Below the pieces are notes generated by a model. It made no database searches, was not told the origin of the DNA, and worked only from the letters and a program-made list of their open reading frames with translations. A program made the position numbers and the translations under genes. Shown here in pieces: positions 13,648-59,040 of a stretch of DNA of 64,000 nucleotides (its first letter is position 1; each line of letters opens with the position of its first letter). The stretch is from Cystobacter fuscus. GTDB taxonomy: Bacteria; Myxococcota; Myxococcia; Myxococcales; Myxococcaceae. Location of the stretch: contig NZ_CP022098.1 in assembly GCF_002305875.1 (NCBI RefSeq), forward strand, positions 11,036,001 through 11,100,000. Direction: 5' to 3'.

Positions 13648-16600
13648 TCAGGCGGGCTCATCGCGGTCTTCCTTGCCAAGACGCTCCAGTATTTTCATGA
13701 GCCGATCCCGATGCCGCTTCACTTCCCGCCGCATCTCCTCCGGGGAGGAGATGTCCAATCCTAGCGCCTGCGCCAGCTTATCGGTGGAGCCCTCCCCGCT
13801 CACGATCAAACGCAGGGTGGCCAGGTCACTCTCGTCCAGCCGCTTCGCCAGCCGGTCCACCGCATGGGATGCCTCCACGAAGTTCTCCAAGATGTCCTTC
13901 GGGGAAGGCTGCCCGAGTTCGACAACGCTCGCGAAATCATCCTCCCGCCAACTTCGCGAGGCCCTCAACTTGAGCTGATCCTGCACCCGGTGCTTCGCCG
14001 CCCTCGTGAGATAGGTGATCAGACGAGCCTTCTCGGGCTCGTACCGCTCGGGCTCCGCCAAATAGGAAAAGAACACATCGATGACGGCATCGTGAGCCGT
14101 TTCCGTGTCGCATCTCAGATCATGCCACAGAAAGCCTTCGATCCGGTTTGAGAAGGATCGGAAGAGTTCAGCCATGACCGAGGGGTCCCTTTGAAGGGCC
14201 CGGCCGTGCAACGCCTTCTCCTCATCTACTCGCGGACCCTTTTGCAGTGGGAAAGGGAGGGCAAGGATCGCGATGAACTCTTCGAGTTCTTCCGCGTGAG
14301 CGTGGGCCTCTTCCGGGAAGTGCTCGCGTGCCATGGCGAGGAGAAAAAGCGACTCCTCCCGCACTTCCTCGTCTTCATGAGAAAGGCCTGTACGGATGGC
14401 ATGCCGAATAACCCTGGATTGGGCCGCGTCGAGGGTCATTGATTGAGGGCTTCTTGCATGCAAGAACCTGATGATCTGTATGACGGCTCTCAGAACCTCT
14501 GCCCGAGAGCTGCTCAGTAACAGGTCGAGCGCCTCGTCACGTCTGTATTGATCGTGAGATGAAATAAACCCCGCCAATGCGGAACTCCGAACTATGGAAT
14601 CCTCGTCATCGACCAGCAGGGAAAGCGTTGCCCAATCCATCGGGTCGCCTCCCGTGATGATGCTCCTCACCACCTGGGCCCTGACAACACGGCTCCGCGC
14701 CTTCGCGGCCAGTTGAAGTGCATTGCGCGAGCGCTCGCCACGGAGCACGCCTAGCGCGAGAATGGCCTTCCCCTGTGCGGGGTCCTCATACGCGGAGACG
14801 TTGCTCAGCAATTCATCCAGGATCCGTTCCGAGAACTCGGTCAAGGCCAATTCACGCAGCAAAGGCAGGGCGATAGTCTCTGGCACGGATTGGTTCCACG
14901 CCACCACGGCCCTGGCGATCTCCGATTGCAAGGAGGGCGGAAGGATATCGCCAGCTTCGCTGGCCAGTAGCGCCGCGAGGTAGACCTGCTTCCTCTCGGG
15001 TTGCTGGGAGCCGCTCACCTCATGGAGCAAGACCCGACGGACGAACCGCTGCGTGGCCTGAGCCCGTTTCTGGATGAGCGCCATGTAGCCCACGCCCAAC
15101 CGAATGACCTCTTCCCAACGGGGTTCGAAAAGGTGCTCGAAGGCGACGGACTCGAAGTTCTCCGCCGAAAGCAGCCCCACGGCGGTGAAGAACTCCTGGA
15201 AGGTCAGGTGGAGAAAACCCCACTGGCCCGCTCCGCGCTCCAGCAGGATCTGCACTTCCCGGCCCGCGCGCTCCAGGAACTCCCTCGCGGAGCGTTCCGC
15301 TTCAGAGGGCTCCACTCCTGTCCGTTCCTGACTGGACTGAGAGAGGACGCGAATGACGAAGTCCTCGGGAGCCACTCCCGTGGGCCAGTCTAGATGCAGC
15401 CGCAGCGCGAGTTCCCCGAGGATGGGGATGGCCTCTTCCTCGTAACGGATGTCCCGGGTGGACGTTCCACTCGCGACGACCCGGCGGGCCTGCCCCCATG
15501 TCTCGCACAGGGTCCGCGCGAAGATCTCATATGCCTGTACCCGGTGAAGGGGCAGGCGCCCCTCGGCCCGGTGAATCAAGGCCAGGGAGGATAAGAGGAA
15601 GGGATTGCGAGCGAGTTCCCTCAAGCGGGAACTGGTGAAGAGTGCTTCCAGGAGCCGCTCCGCATCCTGGTCGGCTCCCGACTCGTCCGGCACTCCCTCG
15701 TTCTCCCACTGGCGGCAGGCACGCGCGAAGGCTCGGACATAGCGGCGGATCTGCTCGTCCTCGAAGCCGCCGAGTTCCACTTCCACGCCCTCGGGGAGAG
15801 CGAAGCCGGAGTAACCCACCCGGCGAGCGGAAACAACGAAGCGGTTGCTGGGATAGCGGACGCAGAAGGACTCGAGCCAGCGCAGGACACCACCTCGCTC
15901 CTCGCTCTGGACCTCATCGAGTCCATCGAGCAGGAGCAGGCACTCGCCCGCCTCCAGCGCTCCTTCGAGAAAGAGCCGCAGCTCCGCCTCGTCTCCCACG
16001 CCACGGTCCTGAAGGTAGACCGCGAGCGCGTCGAGGACGGAGCAATCCTCTCCCAGCCGGGAGCGGAGCTGGGCCAACCGGCCGACGCTGACCAACACGG
16101 GAAGCAGCCGCTCCGCAGTGCCCATCTGCTCGGCCCAGGAGAGCGGTCCCCCCGCGGCGAGCACCGCCAGCCAGCGCAATACCGTGGTCTTCCCCGAGCC
16201 GGGGTCTCCAAGCACCACCAGCGCCCGGTGTCTCCGCACGAGCCTCGCCAGCGATTCGAGCGGAGTGGCGACCTCTTGCCTCTCGACGTCTGGCGCTCGG
16301 GCCGCCTGGGTCCAATCCGTGCCTCGTTCAACGAGTCGCCGGGCCTCGGGTGGGATGAAGACCTCGCGAATATCCAGACTGGGGGGCTGCTTCTTCTGGA
16401 GCGGAAAGCCAACGTAGCGCAGCCGACGGACTTCCGGGCTGTCGACGTAGCGCCGGAAGGACTGCCAGCGTTTCGCATCCCCGAGGGGTTGGAAGACCCC
16501 GGGAGCCGCTTTCGTGGCCAGACTCGCGGGAAAGACATACGTGACCAGGCCATCATGGCCCCATGTACCCAGGGGAGCGAAACGCCGCCGCGCGGTGTCC

Positions 16601-17040
16601 GTCAGGGCCAGGTACACGTCTTCCGTGATGGCGATTCCCTGGGCGGGTGTGGCACGAGCCAGTTGCTCGCACCGGGAAACCTCAAGGGGTGCCAGTTTCT
16701 CCATGTCCGGGGTCCACTCGACCCAGGCGGCGTGCACCGCGAGCTGGACCGTCATCGACAAGTCCACCATGGCGCGCTCCCGGATGGCCTCCGCGGCCGA
16801 GAGCGCATTCGTGATGGCCACGTGCGGCTCGCCTGCGTGGACGAGCAACAGCACGTCGTTTTCGCGCCAGCGCAAGGGCTGGGCCGCACCGAGCTTGTCG
16901 GCGACGTACTCGACCCCCGCGATGTAGCGATCCCGCTGTTGAAGCGAGTCCTCCGCCACGTCTTCCCGCACCACCTGGACGAAGGCGAGCAGCAGAGGAG
17001 TGCCCTCGGACGTGCCCTCCCACCAGGGCGTGTCAGGCAT
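13648..17040 (-). CDS. Cyclase-like / NACHT / HEAT / ECF-sigma fusion protein
   Basis: A 1130-residue single open frame. Residues 1-175 look like a degenerate class III nucleotidyl-cyclase homology domain (RWRENDVLLLVHAG, then VSRCEQLARATPAQGIAIT). Residues 265-620 are a NACHT-type STAND NTPase: P-loop GDPGSGKTT (278-286), Walker B LLLLDGLDEV (368-377) and the characteristic FLHLTFQEFF (609-618). About 640-930 is helical HEAT-like repeat sequence. Residues 950-1125 resemble an ECF sigma factor. Region 2 runs through HDAVIDVFFSYLAEPERYEP and LITYLTRAAKHRVQDQLK. Region 4 ends in EEMRREVKRHRDRL, as in one ECF subgroup. The start at 17040 (GGGGAAGG upstream) overlaps the preceding gene's stop by eight bases, implying translational coupling. 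An NLR-like sensor that remodels transcription is inference. Confidence 0.85.
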   Translation of the reverse strand: MPDTPWWEGTSEGTPLLLAFVQVVREDVAEDSLQQRDRYIAGVEYVADKLGAAQPLRWRENDVLLLVHAGEPHVAITNALSAAEAIRERAMVDLSMTVQLAVHAAWVEWTPDMEKLAPLEVSRCEQLARATPAQGIAITEDVYLALTDTARRRFAPLGTWGHDGLVTYVFPASLATKAAPGVFQPLGDAKRWQSFRRYVDSPEVRRLRYVGFPLQKKQPPSLDIREVFIPPEARRLVERGTDWTQAARAPDVERQEVATPLESLARLVRRHRALVVLGDPGSGKTTVLRWLAVLAAGGPLSWAEQMGTAERLLPVLVSVGRLAQLRSRLGEDCSVLDALAVYLQDRGVGDEAELRLFLEGALEAGECLLLLDGLDEVQSEERGGVLRWLESFCVRYPSNRFVVSARRVGYSGFALPEGVEVELGGFEDEQIRRYVRAFARACRQWENEGVPDESGADQDAERLLEALFTSSRLRELARNPFLLSSLALIHRAEGRLPLHRVQAYEIFARTLCETWGQARRVVASGTSTRDIRYEEEAIPILGELALRLHLDWPTGVAPEDFVIRVLSQSSQERTGVEPSEAERSAREFLERAGREVQILLERGAGQWGFLHLTFQEFFTAVGLLSAENFESVAFEHLFEPRWEEVIRLGVGYMALIQKRAQATQRFVRRVLLHEVSGSQQPERKQVYLAALLASEAGDILPPSLQSEIARAVVAWNQSVPETIALPLLRELALTEFSERILDELLSNVSAYEDPAQGKAILALGVLRGERSRNALQLAAKARSRVVRAQVVRSIITGGDPMDWATLSLLVDDEDSIVRSSALAGFISSHDQYRRDEALDLLLSSSRAEVLRAVIQIIRFLHARSPQSMTLDAAQSRVIRHAIRTGLSHEDEEVREESLFLLAMAREHFPEEAHAHAEELEEFIAILALPFPLQKGPRVDEEKALHGRALQRDPSVMAELFRSFSNRIEGFLWHDLRCDTETAHDAVIDVFFSYLAEPERYEPEKARLITYLTRAAKHRVQDQLKLRASRSWREDDFASVVELGQPSPKDILENFVEASHAVDRLAKRLDESDLATLRLIVSGEGSTDKLAQALGLDISSPEEMRREVKRHRDRLMKILERLGKEDRDEPA

Positions 17041-18220
17041 GGCCGCCTTCCCCACCCAGCCGGAGCACGACACGGAAATGCCCGTCGCCCACACTGAACT
17101 CGGGGGGCGGCAGCTTGCGCGCCTTCATCTGGCGAATCATCTCCGGAACACCCATGCCCAGGTTCTCGCGGCGGCGCGCCCGGGCAAGCAGCCCCGCCAG
17201 GACGGGGTTGCGGCGCTGGCTGATGCCACCGAGCCGGATGCCATCGAGCGTGAGTTTGTTGAGCAACTCCCCCGGATTCACGATCTCCACCCGGTCGTCG
17301 AAGACGTAGATGCGCACCTGCGATGCCGCCCGGTAATCACGATGGGCCACGGCATTGAGCACGGCCTCCCGCAGGACCTTCTCGGGCAATCCCTCCTCGA
17401 TCCTCTCCAGTCCCTCCACATGCGAGGGCGAGCGCACGTTCTTCTTGAGGAAGGTCACCGCGTCCTCGACCTGGTCGAACAGCCTGCCCGTCATCTCCTT
17501 CCGATCGACGAAGTCGGACGTCAACTCCGTGCCCTTGAACAGCACCGCCGAGATGCGTGCGTCCAGGAAACTGCGCTGGGGCTCCCGTCCGAAGAGCAGC
17601 ATGCCGGTGACGGTCGGCGTTCCCGTGGCATCCAGGCACTGCAGGGCCGAGAGCAACTGCCGCCCACTCGCCTCATCGGGCTCATCGTAGAGGATGGCGA
17701 GGAAGACGCGGATCGCCTCGGGGTCCAGATCCTCGAAACGGGAGCCGGCCACGGGCTCCTCGTCGAAGTGGTAGTCAGCCGACTCGAGCAGGCGGCGCAG
17801 TTCGTCACGCCGGGCTTCCCGGGATTGGTTCGCATCGCGGACGTAGTACTTGCCCGCCGCGTGGTACGGACGCTCGGCGCTGAAACGGGGAACCTCCACG
17901 ACCAGGAGTGTTTGACCTTGGAACTCCAGCTTCTGGAAGGAGCAGGTCAGCGGAGGCTGGATGCCTTGACAGATGTTGCTCACCTGGAGCATCAGCTTGT
18001 CCACCTGTTGAGGAGTTCCGGCACCGCTCACCGTCCCGTCATCCTCCACGCCGAGGAACAGGTGACCACCCTTGGTGTTCGCCATCGCGGTGATGGCCTT
18101 GGCGATGTCCTTCGAGTCCACCTGGTAGTTGTTCACCACGGTGCTCTTGAACTCGGTGACGGTGTCTTCACCCAGTTTCAACCGCTGCTCCAGCTCCTCG
18201 AAAGTCATGGTGGGGTGCAT
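17033..18220 (-). CDS. AlbA_2 (Schlafen-type) DNA-binding / ATP-binding protein
   Basis: A 395-residue protein of the COG2865 type, often called RecG-like transcriptional regulators. The N-terminal AlbA_2 domain (about 12-125) shows TVTEFKSTV, AITAMANTKGGHLFLGVEDDG and YYVRDANQSREA. The C-terminal part (about 270-375) has a GHKL-like ATP-binding layout: LREAVLNAVAHRDY, then RVEIVNPGEL and RRRENLGMGVPEMI. A middle region of about 130 residues joins them. It is the first gene of a two-gene unit with the NACHT-sigma protein, sharing eight bases. Members are found near defence and stress loci; a regulatory or sensing role for the partner is inference. Confidence 0.88.
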   Translation of the reverse strand: MHPTMTFEELEQRLKLGEDTVTEFKSTVVNNYQVDSKDIAKAITAMANTKGGHLFLGVEDDGTVSGAGTPQQVDKLMLQVSNICQGIQPPLTCSFQKLEFQGQTLLVVEVPRFSAERPYHAAGKYYVRDANQSREARRDELRRLLESADYHFDEEPVAGSRFEDLDPEAIRVFLAILYDEPDEASGRQLLSALQCLDATGTPTVTGMLLFGREPQRSFLDARISAVLFKGTELTSDFVDRKEMTGRLFDQVEDAVTFLKKNVRSPSHVEGLERIEEGLPEKVLREAVLNAVAHRDYRAASQVRIYVFDDRVEIVNPGELLNKLTLDGIRLGGISQRRNPVLAGLLARARRRENLGMGVPEMIRQMKARKLPPPEFSVGDGHFRVVLRLGGEGGHA

Positions 18221-18310
18221 CTTGCCCTGCCCGCCTATTCGACGACAGCGCGCAGTGCAGCATCCGTCGTCCCCTTCCCACTTCCGCGTCGGCCTTCCAC
18301 GGGCCGGGCC

Positions 18311-37912: not shown

Positions 37913-39253
37913 TCAGGAACGGTGACGCTCGGCCACGTGGTAGAGCTGGGTGAGGGAGCAGTCCAGCAGCGACTGGCACGAGCGCATGTAGTGATGTGCC
38001 CGGACAAAGGGCAACCAGACGCGCCTGCCCACGAGCACCTGGGCCTCCTCGAGCTTCCGGCGCGGAATCCATTGGCCGCCCAGGCGGCGCACCAGCACTT
38101 CACCGAGGTAGGCGCCAATGGCGGGTACGGCGTGCGCTTCGATGTTCTGCCGCTCGAACACCCTCGGGAACTCCTCGTGCCAGAATTGGTAGTCCACGTC
38201 CGTCAGCGACTCGGGCGTCGCCTCGAAGACGGAAGGCACCTTCGTGTGCATCAACGCCACCAGGTGCTCGGCGAGGTCGCTGTAATGCTCGCGAGCCGCT
38301 TCCGGGTCGTCCACGTCCGGAGGCAGGGCGGCATCGGCGGGGCGCCACTCCACGGGCTCTGGCGGTTGGTACATGTTGAACCCGGCGATCTTCCGCTGGC
38401 GCTCATGAATGGCGACGCCATCCACCACGCGTGAGAGGAGCGGAGCCACGTCCGGATGGAAGCGGGGTTGCACGGGGGCGAGCGCGGCGCTGCGCTCGCG
38501 CAAGGTGCGCAGCACGGTGGCGTAGTCGAGGTCCGGCCGGAGATGCACATGGGCACGCGCTTGAGCCTCACGCGCCTCCTCGCTCGCGAAGTCCACGGCG
38601 GTAGGCCGGAGCACCATAAGCACGGAGCCGTTGGGGAGTTCCTCCAACCGATGTGCTGGAGTGGACAGCATGCGCTCGCGCCCAACAGCTTCCACCAGTT
38701 GGGGGCCGAAGACGTTGAGCCAGGACACCTCATAGATCTTGTCGAACCCATCCCGGATGGAGGTCTGCATATCGCGACCGTAGAGAGGAGCACCAGACAG
38801 TTGATCGTCCGCCAGACCATGGGCGGAGGCATGAGCAACCGGGTAGTGAGAGGCCCAGTGCCGCACCATCTCCACGAACTGGTGACAGCGCCCCTCCTCC
38901 TTGAAGAAGGAGAGAGGCTTCACATTGATCGCGATGTCCAGCTCGCAAGGCCGCGGTGGAAGCCAAAGCCAGAGCGACATATCCAATGCGGGCCACTCCG
39001 TCCGGTAGAGCCCGAGAGCCGTGCTGTCCCCATCGCGCCGCTCCTCCAGCGCCTTCCAGAAAGAAGGGCGGGAGTACTTGCGCCTCCGCTTGCCTTTGAC
39101 GACGTCCGGCATCCACCCATCGGCGAACTTCTCGAGGGCTTGGAGGAAGTGCTCCAGTGCTCGTTCTAGTGCCACCCGCGAGTCGAAATCACCTTTGAAC
39201 TCGAACTGTAGACCGTCCTCGCCCTTCACACCGTGAAGATCCAGCACCTTCAT
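37913..39253 (-). CDS. Immunity-type protein, copy 1 (DUF3396-like)
   Basis: A 446-residue cytoplasmic-looking protein and the first of three paralogues. The N-terminal half resembles the type VI immunity family (DUF3396): MSLWLWLPPRP, EMVRHWASHYPVAHASAHG, then YEVSWLNVFGPQLVEAVGRERM and ELPNGSVLMV. The C-terminal half (about 260-446) is a separate helical region ending VLVGRRVWLPFVRAHHYM. Its ATG overlaps the stop of toxin copy 1 as ATGA, the usual layout of toxin-immunity pairs. Neutralisation of that toxin is inferred from pairing and repetition. Confidence 0.8.
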   Translation of the reverse strand: MKVLDLHGVKGEDGLQFEFKGDFDSRVALERALEHFLQALEKFADGWMPDVVKGKRRRKYSRPSFWKALEERRDGDSTALGLYRTEWPALDMSLWLWLPPRPCELDIAINVKPLSFFKEEGRCHQFVEMVRHWASHYPVAHASAHGLADDQLSGAPLYGRDMQTSIRDGFDKIYEVSWLNVFGPQLVEAVGRERMLSTPAHRLEELPNGSVLMVLRPTAVDFASEEAREAQARAHVHLRPDLDYATVLRTLRERSAALAPVQPRFHPDVAPLLSRVVDGVAIHERQRKIAGFNMYQPPEPVEWRPADAALPPDVDDPEAAREHYSDLAEHLVALMHTKVPSVFEATPESLTDVDYQFWHEEFPRVFERQNIEAHAVPAIGAYLGEVLVRRLGGQWIPRRKLEEAQVLVGRRVWLPFVRAHHYMRSCQSLLDCSLTQLYHVAERHRS

Positions 39254-41575: not shown

Positions 41576-42916
41576 TCAGGAGCGGTGCCGCTCGGCCACG
41601 CGGTAGAGCTGGGTGAGGGAGCAGTCCAGCAGCGACTGACACGAGCGCATGTAGTGGTGTGCCCGGACAAAGGGCAACCAGACGCGCCTGCCCACGAGCA
41701 CCTGGGCCTCCTCGAGCTTCCGGCGCGGAATCCACCGGCCGCCCAGGCGGCGCACCAGCACTTCACCGAGATAGGCGCCAATGGCGGGCACGGCGTGCGC
41801 TTCGATGTTCCGCCGCTCGAACACCCTCGGGAATTCCTCGTGCCAGAATTGGTAGTCCACGTCCGTCAGCGACTCGGGCGTTGCCTCGAAGACGGAAGGC
41901 ACCTTCGTGTGCATCAGCGCCACCAGGTGCTCGGCCAGGTTGCTGTAATGCTCGCGAGCCGCTTCCGGGTCGTCCACGTCCGGAGGCAGGGCAGCATCGG
42001 CGGGGTGCCACTCCGAGGGCGCTGGCGGTTGGTACGTGTTGAACCCGGCGATCTTCCGCTGGCGCTCATGAATGGCGACGCCATCCACCACGCGTGAGAG
42101 GAGCGGAGCCACGTCCGGGTGGAAGCGGGGTTGCACGGGGGCGAGCGCGGCGCTGCGCTCGCACAAGGTGCGCAGCACGGTGGCGTAGTCGAGGTCCGGC
42201 CGGAGATGGACGTGGGCACGCGCTTGAGCCTCACGCGCCTCCTCGCTCGCGAAGTCCGCGGCGGTAGGCCGGGTCACCAGGAGGACGGAGCCGTTGGGGA
42301 GTTCCTCGACCCGCCAGGCTGGCGTGGACAGCATGCGCTCACGACCAACGGATTCCACCAACTTCGGGCCGAAGACATTCAGCCAGAAAACCTCGTAGAT
42401 TTTATCGAACCCGTCCCGGATGGAGGTCTGCATATCGCGGCCAAAGCGGGGAGCGCCAGACAGTTGATCATCCGCCAGACCATGGGCGGAGGCATGAGTA
42501 ACCGGGTAGTGAGAGGCCCAGTGCCGCACCATCTCCACGAATTGGAGACAGCGCTCAGCCTCGGTGAAGAAAGAGAGAGGCTTCACCTTGATCGCGATGT
42601 CCAGCTCGCAAGGCCGCGGTGGAAGCCAAAGCCAGAGAAACATGTCCAATGCGGGCCACTCCGTCCGGTAGAGCCCGAGAGCCGTGCTGTTCCCGTCACG
42701 CCGCTCTTCCAGCGCCTTCCAGAAAGAGGGGCGGGAGTACTTGCGCCTCCGCTTGCCGTTGACGACGTCCGGCATCCACCCATCGGCGAACTTCTCGAGG
42801 GCTTGGAGGAAGTGCTCCAGTGCTCGTTCCAGCGCCACCCGCGAGTCGAAAGTACCTTTGAAATCGAACCGGAGGCTGTCCTCGCCCTTCACGCTGTGAA
42901 AATCCAGCACCTTCAT
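41576..42916 (-). CDS. Immunity-type protein, copy 2 (DUF3396-like)
   Basis: A 446-residue paralogue of the protein at 37913-39253, of identical length and differing at only a small fraction of residues (for example FNTYQPPAPSEWHP against FNMYQPPEPVEWRP, and YEVFWLNVFGPKLVESVG). It is coupled to toxin copy 2 by an ATGA overlap. Offset from copy 1 is exactly 3663 bp. The few differences could preserve broad cross-immunity or be the start of specificity change; the sequence cannot say which. Confidence 0.8.
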   Translation of the reverse strand: MKVLDFHSVKGEDSLRFDFKGTFDSRVALERALEHFLQALEKFADGWMPDVVNGKRRRKYSRPSFWKALEERRDGNSTALGLYRTEWPALDMFLWLWLPPRPCELDIAIKVKPLSFFTEAERCLQFVEMVRHWASHYPVTHASAHGLADDQLSGAPRFGRDMQTSIRDGFDKIYEVFWLNVFGPKLVESVGRERMLSTPAWRVEELPNGSVLLVTRPTAADFASEEAREAQARAHVHLRPDLDYATVLRTLCERSAALAPVQPRFHPDVAPLLSRVVDGVAIHERQRKIAGFNTYQPPAPSEWHPADAALPPDVDDPEAAREHYSNLAEHLVALMHTKVPSVFEATPESLTDVDYQFWHEEFPRVFERRNIEAHAVPAIGAYLGEVLVRRLGGRWIPRRKLEEAQVLVGRRVWLPFVRAHHYMRSCQSLLDCSLTQLYRVAERHRS

Positions 42917-46282: not shown

Positions 46283-47803
46283 ATGGGGCTGTTGCTCGCC
46301 CTGGCCCTGCTGTCCAGCGCCTGTGCCTCGCTGAGGCCACCGCCCGGCCTGGGGATGAGCCTGCACTACACGCCGCATGAGGCCACGAGGCCCGCGGTGG
46401 CCGGAGGGCCTGACGAGGGGTCTCCGCTCGCCCTCGCCGCCCTGCCCCTCTCCCCTCCAGAGCCCGAGGCACCGGAGCGGCTGCACCGGCGCCGCGACTC
46501 GCGGGAGGCCGTGACGGCGGCGGGCCCTGGCAGGGTTGAGGAGAATGCGTGGCTGAGCGCCCTCGCGGCCCACGTGGCATTTCTCGGTGCAGTGGACGAG
46601 GTGTCCACCTCCTCGCGCCGCCTTTCCAGCGAGTTCTCCAGGCGCAGGGCCAGCAGCCACCTGGGCGTCGCCAGCGTGGGCAACAGCATCTTCGTCCGCT
46701 ACGTCGACTCCGGCGAACGTCAGCTGCGGTGGATTGACGCCGAGCTCGCCGCCACCACCCGGCTGGCCACTGCCGCCTCGGAGATGGAGGACCCGGACAT
46801 GCAGCTCGCCCTGCTGCGCCTGGCCGGCCCACGCCTGGAGGCCGCCATGATGGGCTCCATTCTCCTGTCCGGATGGGTTGATTTCCTCAACCTCAGCGAC
46901 GTCGCGCTCTCCCGGCACCTCTATGGCGTGGAGACGCTGTTCGTGAAGATGGACTCCATCCAGAAGATGCTCGAGCCCACCATGACGGCACTCTCCTCGT
47001 TGGAGCCGGAGCAGGTGGAGGCAGCGGCGCAAAACGTCCCTGCCCTGGTGGGCCACCTCACCAGCGAGTTCGCCGCACTCCGTGAGGCCATGCGCAAGGG
47101 GGCGGAAGTCCTCCAGAAGGCGCTGGCACTGAAGGATGCCATGGAGGCACTCACCACGCTGTCGGGGCTGAGGTACTCCCTGCCCCGGCTGCTGCCGCGA
47201 GCCGGTCCCGCCACGATTGGCGTGGGACTCATGGTGGGCTCCAACGGCGTGATGATGGGCACGCGGATTGTCGTCTCCGCCGAGTGGGTGGAGATGATGC
47301 GCCAGTTGGTGCGGGCGGGTGTCCTCTCCGTGCCCGCCGTCAGCGCCGCCGTGCGGATTCAGGCCGGCCAGGTGCTGATGGCCGAGGCGCACGGCGAGTT
47401 ACCCAGGGGCGTGCGCGAGGCGCTGGGCGACAGCCCCGAGGTGCGGGGCATGCGCGTGACGGGCAAAGCGGGGGCCGGCATGGCCGAGCCCCCTCGGCAC
47501 CACGTCATGCCCAAGGAGTTCCGGCAGTGGTTCGAGAAGCGCGGCTTCACCGGCGAGATGGACATCGACCAGTTCTGCGTCAGGCTGGAGCAGGCGCACC
47601 ACGAGGCCATTCACGGTGGTGGAAACTGGAAGCTGGGCCGCACGTGGGCCGGCGAGTGGAACCGGCTGATCATGGAGGCGCTGTACGAAGCTGAGACCAG
47701 GGCTGGTCGGATGTTGACGCGGAATGCCATCCTGAACATCGTCGCGAAGCGTATGAAGGACTACTACATTTCAATGAACTTCGTCCGGTGGAGAGGACCA
47801 TGA
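46283..47803 (+). CDS. SitA-like polymorphic toxin lipoprotein (TIGR02269/DUF2380 type)
   Basis: A 506-residue lipoprotein with the lipid Cys at residue 14 (LSSAC). The central part is helical. The C-terminal domain resembles the DUF2380/TIGR02269 toxin tip: PRHHVMPKEFRQWF with His406/His407, then MDIDQFCVRLEQAHHEAIHGG and WNRLIMEAL, a His-rich nuclease-like arrangement. SitA toxins in Myxococcus are lipoproteins handed between siblings by TraA/B outer-membrane exchange; that mechanism is carried over by inference. The n-region lacks positive charge; adding one G in the run near 46284-46287 would join it to MRAELPGARE from 46254, matching toxin copy 3. It overlaps the first immunity gene by ATGA. 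Confidence 0.78.
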   Translation: MGLLLALALLSSACASLRPPPGLGMSLHYTPHEATRPAVAGGPDEGSPLALAALPLSPPEPEAPERLHRRRDSREAVTAAGPGRVEENAWLSALAAHVAFLGAVDEVSTSSRRLSSEFSRRRASSHLGVASVGNSIFVRYVDSGERQLRWIDAELAATTRLATAASEMEDPDMQLALLRLAGPRLEAAMMGSILLSGWVDFLNLSDVALSRHLYGVETLFVKMDSIQKMLEPTMTALSSLEPEQVEAAAQNVPALVGHLTSEFAALREAMRKGAEVLQKALALKDAMEALTTLSGLRYSLPRLLPRAGPATIGVGLMVGSNGVMMGTRIVVSAEWVEMMRQLVRAGVLSVPAVSAAVRIQAGQVLMAEAHGELPRGVREALGDSPEVRGMRVTGKAGAGMAEPPRHHVMPKEFRQWFEKRGFTGEMDIDQFCVRLEQAHHEAIHGGGNWKLGRTWAGEWNRLIMEALYEAETRAGRMLTRNAILNIVAKRMKDYYISMNFVRWRGP

Positions 47804-48270
47804 GCGGCGGACGTGCGTGGCAGGGCAACGTGAAAGCGCGCCTGTATGAGCGGGTCCGCGAGCGAGGTTACGACTCGCTCACCGCCTTCGCTGAGGCGCG
47901 CCCCACCGTCCCTTTACACTTGCTGGCTGAGGAATTAGGCAGGGACGACGTTGCCGGGGTTCAGGTCTTGAGTGGGCTGCTCGCCGAGGCGGAGAGGCGT
48001 AAGCAGGTCACGCGGTTTGTACGCGACGTTTTCACGCGCCTGTGGTCCGAGAGCGTTCCCGACGGTTGGCCGACAGTGATGGACGACGACAACCGTTTCA
48101 AAGTTGCTGAGGCACTCGGTTCGTGGATTGCCTACACCCCAGAAACCCATAAGAACCGCGCCAGGAAGGTCAGCGATGCGCTTCTCGCTACGCCACCGCC
48201 GCCCGGCTGGGTCCCTCGCGGGCCAGACGACGAGCTGCTGCTCACGCTCCTACCCGACGAGGAAGTCTGA
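47800..48270 (+). CDS. Tandem immunity-type protein 1
   Basis: A 156-residue soluble protein coupled to the SitA-like toxin gene by an ATGA overlap (GGAGAGGACC upstream), so it is the likely cognate immunity protein. The N-terminal segment, through RLYERVRERGYDSLTAFAEARPT, is shared with the next two genes and even identical in DNA to the third. The middle (about 65-115) is the most variable part. It ends GWVPRGPDDELLLTLLPDEEV. The family is not recognised beyond this array. Confidence 0.78.
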   Translation: MSGGRAWQGNVKARLYERVRERGYDSLTAFAEARPTVPLHLLAEELGRDDVAGVQVLSGLLAEAERRKQVTRFVRDVFTRLWSESVPDGWPTVMDDDNRFKVAEALGSWIAYTPETHKNRARKVSDALLATPPPPGWVPRGPDDELLLTLLPDEEV

Positions 48271-48291
48271 AGTTCCCTCTTGGAGATCGGG

Positions 48292-48762
48292 ATGACTGAC
48301 GGACGCTCCTGGGACGGCAACTGGAAGGTGCGCCTGTACGAGCGGGTCCGCGAGCGAGGCTACGACTCGCTCACCGCCTTCGCCGAGGCGCGCCCCACTG
48401 TCTCGCTGGTGGCGCTGGCCGAGGAGCTTGGCCCGGACGACATCGCGGGAGTGCAGGTGTTCAGCGGGTTGCTTGCCGAGGCGGAGCGAAGCCGCCGGAT
48501 CACGCGCCTCATGCGCGGCCTGCTCGTGCGAGAACTGTGGTCGTGTCTCCCAAACGGTTGGCCAGCCGTGCTCGACGATGCAAACCGCTTCAAGGTCGCG
48601 AAGGCACTCGGCGTGTGGGAAGCCTTAACCCCAGAAACTCATGAGCAGCGCGTCGACAAGGCCGGCGATGCACTCCTCGCCACGCCACCGCCTTCCGGAT
48701 GGCTCCCGCGTGGACCTGACGACGAACTACTGATCACGCTCCTGCCCGACGAGGAAGTCTGA
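48292..48762 (+). CDS. Tandem immunity-type protein 2
   Basis: A 156-residue paralogue of the gene 22 bp upstream. It shares the N-terminal block RLYERVRERGYDSLTAFAEA and the C-terminal block GPDDELLITLLPDEEV. Its centre differs (RITRLMRGLLVRELWSCLPNG). The start at 48292 is supported by TTGGAGATCGGG. It has no toxin of its own here, so it may protect against a toxin carried by other strains. Confidence 0.75.
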   Translation: MTDGRSWDGNWKVRLYERVRERGYDSLTAFAEARPTVSLVALAEELGPDDIAGVQVFSGLLAEAERSRRITRLMRGLLVRELWSCLPNGWPAVLDDANRFKVAKALGVWEALTPETHEQRVDKAGDALLATPPPSGWLPRGPDDELLITLLPDEEV

Positions 48763-48784
48763 GCTTCACCTCCTGGAGGGGACC

Positions 48785-49255
48785 ATGAGCGGCGGACGTG
48801 CGTGGCAGGGCAACGTGAAAGCGCGCCTGTATGAGCGGGTCCGCGAGCGAGGTTACGACTCGCTCACCGCCTTCGCCGAGGCGCGCCCCACCTCTTCGCT
48901 GGTGGAGCTGGCGGACGAGCTTGGTACTGATGACATCGCGGCAGTGCAGGTGTTCAGCGGGTTGGTGGCCGAGGCGGAGCGAAGCCGCAAAGTCACACGT
49001 TTGGTACGCGGGCAACTCGTGCGCGAACTCGCTGAGGCACTCCCCAACGGCTGGCCGGCCGTAATGGACGACGAAGCCCGCCTGGAAGTTGCTATGGCGC
49101 TCGGCTCCTGGTTTGGCTTCACTCCAGTGACTCATCAGGAGCGCGTCGATCGGGTCAGCAATGCGCTCCTCGCCACGCCACCACCGCCCGGCTGGCGCCC
49201 GCTCGGCCCCGACGACGAGCTGCTACTCACGCTCCTGCCTGACAAGGAAGTCTGA
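48785..49255 (+). CDS. Tandem immunity-type protein 3
   Basis: A 156-residue third member of the array, 22 bp after the second. The first 40 codons are the same as in copy 1 apart from a single base, whereas the middle resembles copy 2 (VFSGLVAEAERSRKVTRLVRG), so it looks like a recombinant of the two. CTGGAGGGGACC precedes the ATG. Confidence 0.75.
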   Translation: MSGGRAWQGNVKARLYERVRERGYDSLTAFAEARPTSSLVELADELGTDDIAAVQVFSGLVAEAERSRKVTRLVRGQLVRELAEALPNGWPAVMDDEARLEVAMALGSWFGFTPVTHQERVDRVSNALLATPPPPGWRPLGPDDELLLTLLPDKEV

Positions 49256-49679: not shown

Positions 49680-51987
49680 GGCCCGAGCGAACAGGTGGGC
49701 CGCGCTGCTGGTGGCCGTGCTGCTCTCCACCGGCTGCGTCACGCTGGCACCACGACAGGGTGGCAGCACCGCCGAGGGCCCGCGCTCCCTCTCCACGTGG
49801 CGAGAGACGGGGGCCGGTATGCCCCCGCTCGAGGCGCCCGCCCCTCTTGCTCTCCCAGAGGCGAGCGAGCACGCATTCTCTGGCAATCCAGGCGGACAGG
49901 AGAGGCTGCACCGCCGCCGCAGCGCCCGCGGACTGGGCCCGGACGCTGCCCTGGCCAACTCGGGCGAGGCGCCCGTGTACGAGGTGGCCAGCGCGGCCGC
50001 CCCCGAGGAGCCGCCCTCGTGCGGAGGGCAGGCCGTGCCCCCGGGCTGGCCCGACTTCTCCTCCAGCCGAGAGGCGCTGCTGGCTCCCTTCCTCAGCTGC
50101 ACCTCGCCCGGGGAAGTCCTCGCCCTCCAGGAGCGGGTGGACATGCCCCGGCTGCTGGAGGTGCTGGACGACTGGAGCGCCGTGCGACTCGGCGCCCTGG
50201 GCCCACCGCGCGAGGACATTGCCCGCCAGCTCAACGAGAAGCGCAAGTCCCTCCTCGTGAAGGCCCCCGCGGCCTATGGGCGCCTCAACGCGCAGGTGCT
50301 CGCCGTCTACAGCGTCGACTCCGCCTATGACGATGACCTGAGGGAGATTCTGTTCCTGCTGGCCCAGGACAAGCGGCTGGCGGAAACCCTCGCGCTGCTG
50401 CCCGCGTTCCAGGTGGCATTGGAGAAGCGGGGTCTGAAACCCACGGCCCGCGTGGACCGGGACTCCGAGCTCGGAGACCTGGGCCGGGGCCTGGTGCGAG
50501 CTGGGAAGGACGTGCTCTCCAGCTCACTCATGGCCGGGGGCGGACGGGACTTCGCCTTCCTTCCCATACGACTCCAACTGCCGCCGGAATACCAGGAGGC
50601 ACTCGCCACGGCCGAGCAGGAGTTAATGCGCAACGCCGCGGCGGACAGCATGGCGGTGAGTGCTTTTGACGAGCTCACCTTTGGTGTGCCGCTGGGCGCC
50701 TACCACTCTGTCGCCACCACCCTCCATGGCGGGAAGCTGCTTTGGAAGGGAGAGCTCGAGGAGGGCACGCGCGAGGTGGCTCCGGCACTGGTGCTGGGCC
50801 TCATCGCGGGTGGCAAGGGTCTGCGCAACCTCTCCAAGGGAGAAGGCGCCGCGGGTATGCGCTTGCGCATCGTTTCCGGGGTGGAGGTCGCGCAAGCGCG
50901 CCTGCGGGCCCTGACAGAGACGGCACGGCAGTTCAAAGGGGCGATGAGCCTGGAGGGCCTGCGGGAGTTGGTGCGGGAGGTGCGAGCGAGCCGGGAGGCA
51001 GGCCGCTTCGTCGCCGTGGGCGGGGCCGACGCCGCGTTGGCGCTGCATGAGGCAGGGGGAGATGTGGCCAGGGCTCGGCCGCTCATGTCCAGGGCGAAGC
51101 CTGGGGCTACGGGCTCCCAGCCCCTGAAGGCTGGCGCGGAGAACGGTGCCGGGGAGGCCGCACGCCCCTCCGCGACGAAGGCCGGTGCCGAGGGGCGCCT
51201 GGGCACACTGGCCTCGCTCGTGGACGAGGGAGTCGGCCACACGCCGGCAGTGGTGGAGGCGAAGCTCGCGGCCGTGGAGCTCGAGGCCACGGGCCCGCGT
51301 CTTCCCAGGGACATGGGCGTGCTGGAGAAGCACCGCCCCTCCCTCGCCGCCCCGCCGTCCGAGGCCCGGGGCAACCCGCGCTGGCGCGAGTACGTCGACT
51401 ACTACGAGAAGCGCCAGCGGGAGGTGGAGAAGGGCACGGCCACCGAGGGCCCCCTCAGGTGGGAGCCCTACGAGCGGATGCGCGCGTGGTTTGCCCGGGG
51501 GATGGCCTTCGAGGCCGACATGGTGAAGCTGCTGCGAGAGGACGCGACGAGGCCTCGGTTACAGCGCCGCTTCCTCGGAGATTTCGACAAGCCCCGTGTT
51601 GAAGTGCAGGTGGGCGTGAGGAAGCCGGGCCCCGGCCTGCGCTACGCGGATGTGCTCGTCATCGAAGAGGGCGAACTCGGCGGACGGCCACGGCGCGTGG
51701 AGACGTTCAGCTTCAAGAGTAGGGATCTTTCTCGGTTGGACCCAGATGCGTTGACAGCGCAGGTGATTGAGGACGCGAGGGAAGCTCTGCAAAAGTACGG
51801 AGAGCGGCTGGACATCCGCCGTGAGTCTCTCCATTCGCTGTTCCCGGACGGCAGGAAGGTGCAGGTTTCGAGAGTTCGCCTCATCTATGAGGGCGGTGAA
51901 CTCAAGCCCATGAAAATAGATGACCTGGATTCAGTCGTGACTGCGGCCGAGCAGGCAGTTCCGGGAGTGGAGGTACTGTTTCAATGA
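49669..51987 (+). CDS. Polymorphic-toxin-like lipoprotein, copy 3
   Basis: A 772-residue lipoprotein on the plus strand. The signal peptide (MRAEARANRW then LLVAVLLSTGC) has a good basic n-region and lipobox. The central region and C-terminal domain are homologous to toxin copies 1 and 2 (PGWPDFSSSREALLAPF, DMPRLLEVLDDWSAVRLG, LRYADVLVIEEGE, VETFSFKSRDLSR) but clearly more diverged, and the N-terminal ~90 residues are different. It overlaps the preceding truncated gene by 11 bases and the following immunity gene by ATGA. Confidence 0.78.
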   Translation: MRAEARANRWAALLVAVLLSTGCVTLAPRQGGSTAEGPRSLSTWRETGAGMPPLEAPAPLALPEASEHAFSGNPGGQERLHRRRSARGLGPDAALANSGEAPVYEVASAAAPEEPPSCGGQAVPPGWPDFSSSREALLAPFLSCTSPGEVLALQERVDMPRLLEVLDDWSAVRLGALGPPREDIARQLNEKRKSLLVKAPAAYGRLNAQVLAVYSVDSAYDDDLREILFLLAQDKRLAETLALLPAFQVALEKRGLKPTARVDRDSELGDLGRGLVRAGKDVLSSSLMAGGGRDFAFLPIRLQLPPEYQEALATAEQELMRNAAADSMAVSAFDELTFGVPLGAYHSVATTLHGGKLLWKGELEEGTREVAPALVLGLIAGGKGLRNLSKGEGAAGMRLRIVSGVEVAQARLRALTETARQFKGAMSLEGLRELVREVRASREAGRFVAVGGADAALALHEAGGDVARARPLMSRAKPGATGSQPLKAGAENGAGEAARPSATKAGAEGRLGTLASLVDEGVGHTPAVVEAKLAAVELEATGPRLPRDMGVLEKHRPSLAAPPSEARGNPRWREYVDYYEKRQREVEKGTATEGPLRWEPYERMRAWFARGMAFEADMVKLLREDATRPRLQRRFLGDFDKPRVEVQVGVRKPGPGLRYADVLVIEEGELGGRPRRVETFSFKSRDLSRLDPDALTAQVIEDAREALQKYGERLDIRRESLHSLFPDGRKVQVSRVRLIYEGGELKPMKIDDLDSVVTAAEQAVPGVEVLFQ

Positions 51988-53324
51988 AGGTGATGGAAGG
52001 TTACGACGCGAGCGAGGATGACAGCCTTCGCTTGGATTTCAAAGGCTCCTTCGACTCGCAGGCAGCACGGCAGAGCGAGCTTGAGGTCTTTCTTCAGGTG
52101 CTTGAGGCACACGCCGGTGAGTGGATGCCGGATGTCGTCAAAGGCAAGCGGCAACGCGAGTACACTCGCGATGCCGTCTTGAGGGCGCTAGAAGAGCGGG
52201 GCAGCCAAAGATACACGCATTGTGGGCTCTATCATGCACGATGGCCCGCGGTGGACATGCTGCTCGGTCTCTACCTGCCGCCCCTTCTGCCCATGCTGGA
52301 TGTCGTGGTCAAGGTCAAGGCACTCTCCTTCTTCGCGAAAGAGGAGCGCTGTCTCCACATCGTAGAGATGGTGCGCGCCTGGGCTTGCCGCTATCCAGTC
52401 ACACATGCTCGGGCTCACAGCGCCGATGACGCGGAGTTGGCGGGCTCTCCCCGCTTCGGACGCGACGAGAAGACTTCGCGGCAGAACGGTTTCGACAAGG
52501 TTTACGAGGTGTTCTGGCTCAACGTCTTCGGCCCCAAGTTGGTGGAGACCGTGGGCCGCGAGCGCATGCTGTCCACGCCGGCCCACCGCGTGGAGGAACT
52601 CCCCAACGGCTCCATCCTCCTGGTGACCTGGCCCACGGTTGCGGACTTCGCCAGCAAGGAAGCCCGGCTCGCCCAGGCCCGCGCCCACGCCCACCTTCGG
52701 CCGGACCTCGACTTCGACACCGTGCTACGCACCTTGCATGAGCGCAGTGCCAGGCTCACCCCCGTGGAGCCTCGCTTCCACCCAGACATGGCCACACTCC
52801 TCTCGCGTGTGGTGGACCGCGCCGCCAGCCACGAGCGCCAGCAGCGGATTGCCGAGCTCAACGCCTGGCAACCTGCCGAGCCCGAGGAGTGGCGCCCCGC
52901 CAACTCTGCCCTCCCCCCGGACGTGGAGAACGTCGAGCGTGCGCTCCAGCAGTACAGTCTCTACGCCGAGCACCTCGTGGCACTGCTGCACTCGCAGGTG
53001 CCCTCCGTCTTCAAGGCAACCCCCGAGTCGCTCACGGACGCCGACTTCTACTTCTGGCGGGAGGAATTCCCGAAGCGCCGCCTGCGGGAAGTCATTGACG
53101 AGCACGCGGTCCCCGCCATTGGCGCATACCTGGGCGAAGTGCTGGTGCGCAACCTCGGCGGCAGGTGGATTCCGCGCCAGAAACTCGAGGAGGCACAGGT
53201 GCTGGTGGGCAACCGCGTCTGGTTGCCCTTCCTTCGGGCTCGGCGCTACATGGCCTCGCGACAGGCGCTACTCGACCATTCGCTCACCCAGCTCTACCGC
53301 GCGGCCGAGCGGCACCAAAGTTGA
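51984..53324 (+). CDS. Immunity-type protein, copy 3 (DUF3396-like)
   Basis: A 446-residue paralogue of the proteins at 37913 and 41576, equal in length but diverged, especially in the first 150 residues (DAVLRALEERGSQRYTHCG). The block with YEVFWLNVFGPKLVETVGRERM and LPNGSILLVTWPTVADF is conserved. It is translationally coupled to toxin copy 3. Divergence of this pair from copies 1 and 2 fits separate specificity, which is inference. Confidence 0.8.
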   Translation: MKVMEGYDASEDDSLRLDFKGSFDSQAARQSELEVFLQVLEAHAGEWMPDVVKGKRQREYTRDAVLRALEERGSQRYTHCGLYHARWPAVDMLLGLYLPPLLPMLDVVVKVKALSFFAKEERCLHIVEMVRAWACRYPVTHARAHSADDAELAGSPRFGRDEKTSRQNGFDKVYEVFWLNVFGPKLVETVGRERMLSTPAHRVEELPNGSILLVTWPTVADFASKEARLAQARAHAHLRPDLDFDTVLRTLHERSARLTPVEPRFHPDMATLLSRVVDRAASHERQQRIAELNAWQPAEPEEWRPANSALPPDVENVERALQQYSLYAEHLVALLHSQVPSVFKATPESLTDADFYFWREEFPKRRLREVIDEHAVPAIGAYLGEVLVRNLGGRWIPRQKLEEAQVLVGNRVWLPFLRARRYMASRQALLDHSLTQLYRAAERHQS

Positions 53325-57943: not shown

Positions 57944-58318
57944 CTACTCGTCGGGCGGGCCCTCCAGCACCTTCGCCACGCGCATCAACCGCTTCACCTC
58001 GCCGGGGCTCCACCCGCGCAGCATGCGCACGAGCTGCCGCAACTCCTGAGAGAGGCTGCCCTCGGGGGTTGGTGCCGCCAGGGAGGGCGCCACGTCGGCC
58101 CGGCTCAACTCCAGCAGCACGTCCGCGGAGATGCCGAGGGCAACGGCCAGCTTCCGCAGCGTGGGGACGGACGGCATCATGCCGCCACGCTCAATCCGGC
58201 CATAGACGTTGGGAGCGAGGCAGGCCTGCTTCGCCACCTGGGCCTGGGTGAGCCGCAGCCGCTCGCGTGCCACGCGGCACACGCCGCCGAGGGACTTCTG
58301 GAGTTCTTGAGGTTCCAT
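57944..58318 (-). CDS. XRE-family helix-turn-helix regulator 1
   Basis: A 124-residue DNA-binding protein. The HTH_3 domain covers about residues 8-70 (ARERLRLTQAQVAKQACLAP, then YGRIERGGMMPSVPTLRKLA). The short C-terminus (VRMLRGWSPGEVKRLMRVAK) resembles that of the two neighbouring regulators. It lies 192 bp upstream of the frameshifted kinase on the same strand and may control it, which is inference from position. Confidence 0.85.
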   Translation of the reverse strand: MEPQELQKSLGGVCRVARERLRLTQAQVAKQACLAPNVYGRIERGGMMPSVPTLRKLAVALGISADVLLELSRADVAPSLAAPTPEGSLSQELRQLVRMLRGWSPGEVKRLMRVAKVLEGPPDE

Positions 58319-58327
58319 GGGCCGCCT

Positions 58328-58657
58328 CTATGAATCTTCCGTGCCCTGCGGCTCACCTGGGTCCCGTGTTTCAGGGGTGGGAAGCATGCAGTCGGCCAGG
58401 TTGGCGAGCGCGAGCACCTGTTGCCGCGGCAAGCGCTGCAACAACGGACGGAGCCTGGAGACAGCGGGCCGCGCGTGGGCAGGTGCTGGCTCCGACACAA
58501 GCCAGGGCAGCGGTGTCGAGGAGGTAAACCCCAGCAGCGCGTTGGCATCCAGCTCGAGGACTGCACACAGCCGCATGAGCGAGAGCAAGCTGGGCGTCAT
58601 GTACCCCCGCTCGATGCGGCCGTAGACAGCCGTGGCGAGGCCCATGCAGCTTGCCAC
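58328..58657 (-). pseudogene. XRE regulator 2, missing its N-terminus
   Basis: The frame begins inside a helix-turn-helix domain: VASCMGLATAVYGRIERGYMTP is helix 2 onward, with helix 1 absent. The C-terminal part is intact (LLQRLPRQQVLALANLAD). The missing part was lost in a deletion that also removed the C-terminus of the upstream regulator; the join lies near 58665-58685. A shortened, probably non-binding product could still be made from the GTG at 58657. Confidence 0.7.
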
Positions 58658-59040
58658 CTGGGCCTGGGCACCATGGCCTGGGCGGCATTGCCGAGCACGG
58701 TGAGCTGTTTGGGCGTCAACAGGCGCGCCGTGCGGAGGAGCCGTCGGAGGGCTGGTGGCTCACTCGAAGCCGGAGGGGATTCCACGAGCCAGGCGGGGGG
58801 CTTCTCGGTGGAAAAGCCCAGCAGGGTGTTGGCGTCCACCCGCAGCACGCGGCACAACCGCAGCAGCGAAGGAAGGCTTGGAAGCATGAGGCCGCGCTCC
58901 AGGCGCCCATACACTTCCGTCGCGAGCTCGGCCCGCTCGGCCAGCTCTTCCTGAGTCAACCCGGCGCGCAAGCGCGCTTCGCGTGCAGCCGTCCCCACTT
59001 GGGTGGCAAGCGGCGCCTTCTTCTTGTTGGCGTGGGCCAC
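58597..59040 (-). CDS. XRE-family helix-turn-helix regulator 3
   Basis: A 147-residue protein from a GTG start at 59040, eight bases after the pseudokinase stop. The HTH domain is complete (AREARLRAGLTQEELAERAE, then YGRLERGLMLPSLPSLLRLC). The middle is homologous to regulator 2 (DANTLLGFSTEKPPAWLVES). After LTVLGNAAQAM the frame runs into sequence that, in another frame, is regulator 2, so its natural C-terminus is lost and replaced by about 28 unrelated residues. Confidence 0.75.
   Translation of the reverse strand: MAHANKKKAPLATQVGTAAREARLRAGLTQEELAERAELATEVYGRLERGLMLPSLPSLLRLCRVLRVDANTLLGFSTEKPPAWLVESPPASSEPPALRRLLRTARLLTPKQLTVLGNAAQAMVPRPRWQAAWASPRLSTAASSGGT

Follow-up and report, generated by a model that had tools for sequence, protein, structure and literature searches.

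One gene in a 64,000-nucleotide stretch of the Cystobacter fuscus chromosome (the window; contig NZ_CP022098.1, positions 11,036,001 to 11,100,000) encodes a NACHT NTPase whose C-terminus is predicted, by Pfam, by sequence search of the PDB and by AlphaFold models compared with Foldseek, to be a true sigma factor of the extracytoplasmic function (ECF) type with two domains, sigma2 and sigma4. The closest relatives of this module are standalone sigma factors that head a defence-like gene cassette, and related modules end other proteins of conflict-type loci. We consider it an even call that the cassette sigma factor is a portable plug-in of NLR-type systems that three or more unrelated conflict-type proteins carry at their C-terminal end, where it would make the receptor either an initiation factor for the HerA-based cassette or an integrated decoy.

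A NACHT receptor with a C-terminal sigma module

The gene and the parts of its product are as follows.

13648 to 17040, minus strand: NACHT-HEAT-sigma fusion gene (P0001), 1130 residues; ATG at 17040, stop codon ending at 13648, internal stops 0
16528 to 16998, minus strand: class III nucleotide cyclase-like fold, residues 15-171 (AlphaFold on 7 orthologues; Foldseek against the PDB, best E 1.5e-8)
15724 to 16224, minus strand: NACHT NTPase domain, residues 273-439 (Pfam PF05729, E 3.5e-13; P-loop GDPGSGKT, Walker B LLLLDGLDE)
14251 to 14820, minus strand: HEAT-like repeat region, residues 741-930 (Pfam HEAT_2 at 743-823, E 1.3e-4, below cut-off)
13651 to 14253, minus strand: complete ECF-like sigma module, residues 930-1130, as predicted by Pfam, NCBIfam, PDB search and AlphaFold/Foldseek (53-sequence alignment A1)
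13942 to 14229, minus strand: predicted sigma domain 2, residues ~938-1033 (AlphaFold confidence, pLDDT, ~90; Foldseek to sigmaE region 2)
13669 to 13887, minus strand: predicted sigma domain 4 with its helix-turn-helix (HTH), residues ~1052-1124 (AlphaFold helices; conserved A1 positions; recognition helix with VKRHRDRLMK)

A sequence-only reading of this DNA had described a single 1130-residue frame, and this frame stands: it runs along the minus strand without interruption, and a second species carries an orthologous fusion of 1135 residues (87% identical; L043 6808-10215) at an equivalent locus with unchanged gene order, which rules out a misassembly or a lost stop codon as the source of the fusion. 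The NACHT-sigma fusion is known from these two species, of one genus, only.

The NACHT domain scores 50.1 bits against PF05729 (cut-off 26.7), with both Walker A and Walker B present, and its motifs (GDPGSGKTT at 278-286, LLLLDGLDEV at 368-377, then FLHLTFQEFF) lie exactly where the sequence-only reading had put them. The same reading's HEAT-like repeats find support in orthologue P0002, in which HEAT_2 matches the corresponding region strongly, and its suggestion of a cyclase-like N-terminus was confirmed by modelling: although this part of P0001 gave no Pfam match and no effector match, the model of residues 1-200 has the cyclase CyaC as its best match in the PDB (1wc0, Foldseek E 1.5e-8). 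Because both metal-binding Asp residues appear from the sequence to have been replaced (the FxD position is F-V-Q and the GDG loop is E-N-D), the domain looks like a catalytically dead pseudocyclase. PADLOC returned weak P-loop matches only for P0001.

Several lines of analysis identify the C-terminal module. Sigma70_r2 matches residues 960-1025 with 27.5 bits when the module is searched as a 200-residue fragment and with 23.4 bits in the full chain (cut-off 24), and phmmer against the PDB matched RpoE (2q1z) at E 3.5e-6. A profile of 53 relatives of the module, searched against the PDB, found the ECF sigma factors 2q1z (E 9.7e-7), SigK (4nqw, 1.3e-4) and SigW (5wuq, 0.006). Sigma70_r2 is matched by 44 of the 53 family members, and the Pfam region 4 profiles by only 1-2 of them. 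The NCBIfam model for ECF sigma-70 factors (TIGR02937) gave 34.7 bits (E 1.3e-8), under its curated cut-off of 42.9, so that by this score the module is a divergent ECF member at best. AlphaFold predicted sigma2 with confidence (pLDDT ~90) and, beyond a loose linker, a helical sigma4 at the expected place; the mean pLDDT is 75. With the whole module as query, the top Foldseek match was the ECF factor SigK (E 4.3e-3, probability 1.0) and nearly all of the good matches were sigma factors, those over the whole length being ECF factors; no match fell below E 0.001, probably because sigma2 and sigma4 are flexibly joined, and sigma2 alone superposes on region 2 of sigmaE (5or5) at 1.8 Å with a TM-score of 0.79. 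The sigma4 assignment, drawn from the model and from a conserved STxxLA...VKRHRDRLMK stretch, is less certain than that of sigma2. These Pfam, PDB profile and fold searches rule out a non-sigma helical family for the C-terminus and bear out the earlier suggestion of sigma region 2 and, with less certainty, of region 4. Nor is the domain degenerate, since conserved positions are retained as they are in standalone members of the family: in the fused NACHT module 3 of 48 are changed, compared with mostly 0-7 in the standalone members. The sigma4 recognition helix is likewise conserved in the NACHT fusions, with a single K-to-R change in the second species.

A second, co-operonic gene lies directly upstream and extends 8 nucleotides into the NACHT gene.

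17033 to 18220, minus strand: SLFN AlbA_2 plus HATPase_c_4 (RecG-C-like) protein, 395 residues (Pfam E 1.1e-24 and 3.1e-23)
18221 to 18310, minus strand: 90-nucleotide leader before the AlbA_2 gene, the same in the second species and without the cassette promoter motif described below

Pairs of AlbA_2 and NACHT genes also occur in Corallococcus sicarius, C. praedator, C. llansteffanensis, Corallococcus sp. CA053C and a metagenome-assembled genome (MAG) of the Myxococcaceae (L036/L120, L118, L119, L122 and L123), with NACHT proteins 46-53% identical to that of the window; a further NACHT relative comes from a Planctomycetota MAG in which an AlbA_2 gene was not detected. None of these six relatives, five of them with an AlbA_2 partner, carries the sigma module. 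The one scanned with Pfam ends in HEAT repeats, and the C-terminal ends of the others look the same. Since all six lack the module, the ancestral NACHT protein most likely had no sigma factor and the module was appended later, in one genus. The other neighbours of the fusion locus are a cytochrome-type operon and an isocitrate lyase gene.

The cassette family and other fusions of the module

Among 195 genomes of the phylum searched, close relatives of the sigma module are confined to the Myxococcaceae. Two standalone paralogues, with 68% and 55% identity to the fused module, are present in the window's genome. A standalone sigma gene nearly always heads a cassette in which it is followed by genes for a ~125-residue HTH-like protein, an ImmA/IrrE (M78) peptidase, a ~390-residue protein and a HerA-type ATPase (L041 3430-8660 in the window's genome; L037, L039, L040, L044-L053, L074-L079 and L082-L091). 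By this composition the cassette is defence-like, and we found no description of it. The operon position of the 390-residue HerA partner had raised the suspicion that it is NurA, which neither Pfam nor PDB profile searches supported. The cassette often adjoins a divergent acyltransferase-like gene. Two loci hold decayed cassettes (L042 5741-8681 and L079 5006-7190), in which ImmA is lost and portions of the HerA gene or of the 390-residue gene have become joined to the HTH gene.

In a phylogenetic tree the NACHT-borne modules are nested within the cassette sigma factors of their host genus (support 100/93, then 99/96 and 97/92), and the resident cassette was therefore the donor. A phage source was rejected: named phage records gave no match, and a lone IMG/VR contig carries only a truncated piece of the cassette. 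On that contig, which is classed as viral, the piece (L124 4011-4900) consists of the end of a sigma gene with the internal motif described below, an HTH gene that is intact and an ImmA gene that is truncated.

The module also ends a TIR-like/STAND/TPR protein of ~1240-1250 residues in three other species (L034, L072 and L073), whose gene adjoins genes for a TIR protein and a MoxR-like ATPase. A further locus (L080 1941-7293) holds a row of genes for a MoxR-like ATPase, a 631-residue protein, a protein with a CHAT peptidase and a fusion protein (379-399 residues) that ends in the sigma module; comparison of the N-terminal part of this fusion protein with that of the CHAT neighbour gave no significant match. 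Conserved positions are changed at 4, 0 and 4 of 42 in the three TIR-STAND modules and at 9 of 47 in L080. Because the tree keeps the TIR-STAND modules apart from the NACHT ones, the sigma module was fused independently at least twice, and probably three times. In all of these fusions it is C-terminal.

Promoter-like elements and the role of the sigma module

ECF promoters usually carry AAC near -35 and CG near -10, 15-16 nucleotides apart. Upstream of the cassettes, an element of the form GTCG(A/C)ACT-N14/15-CGAA is present in 48 of 48 regions, 81-92 nucleotides before the start codon, with a spacer of 14 nucleotides in 46 and of 15 in 2. From its sequence it is an ECF-type promoter-like element, with the spacing expected were the standalone sigma factors to read their own promoters. 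With at most one mismatch it is found, too, upstream of the divergent acyltransferase-like gene and of additional HTH gene copies. A similar element lies within the sigma coding region of the fusion.

13898 to 13923, minus strand: internal GTCGAACT-N14-CGAA element, inherited from the cassette sigma gene and conserved in the family at the DNA level

With equal spacing, this internal element is exact in 36 of 47 standalone sigma genes and within one mismatch in 43. Its glutamate codon is always GAA in the standalone genes (GAA usage in the family is ~32%), and CGAA is retained even where the proline has become A or S. Of the ten most codon-constrained columns, six fall at module residues 111-119 and the other four near both gene ends; these codon counts are not independent, as the sequences are related. 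Both NACHT fusions retain the element, whereas the TIR-STAND fusions and L080 have lost it. It may perhaps be an internal promoter or operator for the downstream HTH and ImmA genes. The window's genome contains the exact element seven times (two cassette upstream sites, three sites internal to sigma genes and two elsewhere); at one mismatch the count of 176 is hardly above the 145 of a reversed control, and we claim no wider regulon.

The reading that we favour, and to which we give about half of the probability, is that the module is a transcriptional output: NTP-driven activation would free the sigma domain, and cassette promoters would be transcribed in trans. A STAND/NLR-type receptor (pseudocyclase-NACHT-HEAT), translated together with its AlbA_2 partner, would have gained an intact ECF-type sigma factor at its C-terminus. 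In the resting, closed receptor the sigma domain would presumably be masked; NTP-driven opening or oligomerisation would expose it, and the exposed domain would join core RNA polymerase and start transcription at GTCGAACT-N14-CGAA promoters, that is, at those of the resident sigma/HTH/ImmA/HerA cassette. As no HTH or ImmA genes lie beside the NACHT gene, the NTPase could have replaced the HTH/ImmA control. We favour this output because the module is whole, because its DNA-reading helix is kept even in the old fusions, because the genome contains a matching element, and because there is a precedent in MalT and other STAND regulators, for which an output through C-terminal DNA binding is established. 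Regulators of the MalT type likewise join a STAND NTPase to a C-terminal DNA-reading output, and some of them (cyclase-STAND-LuxR proteins) have an N-terminal cyclase-like domain; they differ in using a LuxR-type HTH and an AP-ATPase-type NTPase with TPR, whereas the fusion has a whole sigma factor and a NACHT domain with HEAT repeats. The associations with NACHT, HerA, ImmA and TIR suggest an antiviral role. Bacterial NLR-type proteins are thought to kill or damage, by nuclease, NADase, protease or pore; a transcriptional output would instead unite infection sensing and a programmed transcriptional response in a single molecule, nearer to eukaryotic innate immunity. The promoter-like element makes this model directly testable with a reporter.

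Several observations weigh against a transcriptional output. The sigma-free NACHT relatives indicate that the core system needs no sigma factor, and the TIR-STAND fusions already contain a possible effector, the TIR-like domain. No cassette motif, at up to one mismatch, lies upstream of the AlbA_2 or the NACHT gene, so that a NACHT operon regulating itself through the cassette promoter was rejected; at the same threshold there is none upstream of the TIR-STAND genes. The fused sigma factor evolves faster than the standalone sigma factor of the host genus, with a ratio of nonsynonymous to synonymous substitution rates (dN/dS) of 0.47 versus 0.35 and an identity of 77% versus 89%. The synonymous rate is also raised at the C-terminal end of the fusion, and recombination may thus contribute to the divergence. 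Finally, bNACHT proteins normally sense with the C-terminus and have their effector at the N-terminus (PMC12169576), and a C-terminal sigma factor could equally be bait.

Faster evolution, and a distribution limited to two species of one genus, are also what might be expected had a chance read-through joining simply been tolerated, leaving the sigma part without a role. We regard such an incidental fusion as very improbable: both species have preserved the frame and the conserved residues, dN/dS is 0.47, and the same module sits C-terminally in other conflict-type loci.

A more serious alternative, though one that we consider clearly less probable than a transcriptional output, is that the module is an integrated decoy. 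In plant NLRs with integrated domains, such as RRS1-WRKY, a transcription-factor domain serves as the decoy. By analogy, a phage protein directed against the cassette sigma factor or the sigma/RNA polymerase complex (an anti-sigma protein, for example) would bind the copy in the receptor and so trigger the ancestral NACHT/AlbA_2 output. The pattern here matches the plant one in that a transcription-factor domain, related to a standalone host protein, was added to some members of an NLR lineage, although the kingdom and the NTPase clade are different and a decoy role is here only a candidate. The module lies on the C-terminal, sensor side of a receptor whose orthologues presumably function without it, its closest relative is a standalone protein of its own genome, and the donor cassette has the defence features HerA and ImmA/IrrE. 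Between the two species, moreover, the HEAT and sigma parts are the most divergent (identities of 78% and 77%, whereas NACHT and the region that follows it reach 94-95%), and two other conflict-type loci gained the module at a C-terminus. RNA polymerase-engaging GreA/B-C domains have been predicted in conflict proteins (Kaur et al., PMC8195603). Against a decoy, a bait needs no promoter-reading HTH, yet the conserved sigma4 residues persist even in old fusions; the dN/dS of the fused sigma factor lies far below 1 and gives no hint of diversifying selection; and no phage protein targeting a sigma factor of the cassette family is known. Each of the six fusion-bearing genomes also contains a standalone sigma copy, which is expected under both the output and the decoy models. 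These models make opposite predictions for sigma4 mutants and for phage anti-sigma proteins, and a bait would bring to bacterial NLRs the integrated decoy, a mechanism known from plants.

It is also conceivable, if rather unlikely, that the sigma factor merely tethers the receptor to RNA polymerase or DNA, positioning it to monitor takeover of transcription by phage without initiating transcription itself. The retained sigma fold and conserved surfaces would fit such a role, as would the RNA polymerase-targeting conflict proteins that have been predicted (PMC8195603), but nothing distinguishes the module from a transcription-competent sigma factor, and a tether explains nothing beyond what the output and decoy models explain.

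Known systems and the remainder of the window

The sequence-only reading held that no system of this design had been described. This stands for the fusion itself, as the literature searched, mostly without subscription papers, yielded no NACHT protein with a complete sigma factor at its end; links between sigma factors and defence, in contrast, have already been reported (PMC8195603, PMC12751052). Antiphage bNACHT proteins such as bNACHT25 (PMC12169576) share the central NACHT domain, the tripartite layout and a C-terminal repeat or sensor region with the fusion, which, known here from its sequence, differs in its pseudocyclase-like N-terminus without a recognised effector, its C-terminal sigma factor and its AlbA_2 partner gene. 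Nor is an effector discernible in every accepted bNACHT clade (PMC12169576).

For TRADD-N conflict proteins, Kaur et al. (2021, PMC8195603) described an N-terminal ECF-like HTH and C-terminal partners that include STAND NTPases; they also described ECF sigma genes beside EACC2/caspase systems. These systems likewise tie a sigma-type domain to an NTPase or conflict system and have a proposed transcriptional output. Here, by contrast, sigma2-sigma4 is C-terminal in a NACHT protein and comes from a myxobacterial cassette family, and TRADD-N was not among the Pfam matches to P0001 up to E 1. In the Calp system (CalpL/CalpT/CalpS), which is ancillary to type III CRISPR, a defence protease cleaves an anti-sigma factor and releases the sigma factor (PMC12751052). 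Calp resembles the model that we favour in being a defence pathway with a sigma factor as its output; that of Calp is a separate protein freed by anti-sigma cleavage, whereas the one described here belongs covalently to the NTPase receptor, and no Lon-SAVED protease and anti-sigma factor of the Calp type are among the NACHT-sigma neighbours (AlbA_2, the cytochrome-type operon and isocitrate lyase). The description of MoxR-vWA ternary systems does not mention a sigma factor (PMC7159879).

Elsewhere in the window, three related 446-residue proteins (37913-39253, 41576-42916 and 51984-53324) alternate with large proteins between 37913 and 53324, a region that looks like a repeated secreted-protein or immunity-type array; three similar genes for 156-residue proteins lie at 47800-49255. 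A tandem of three mutually similar small HTH regulator genes occupies 57944-59040.

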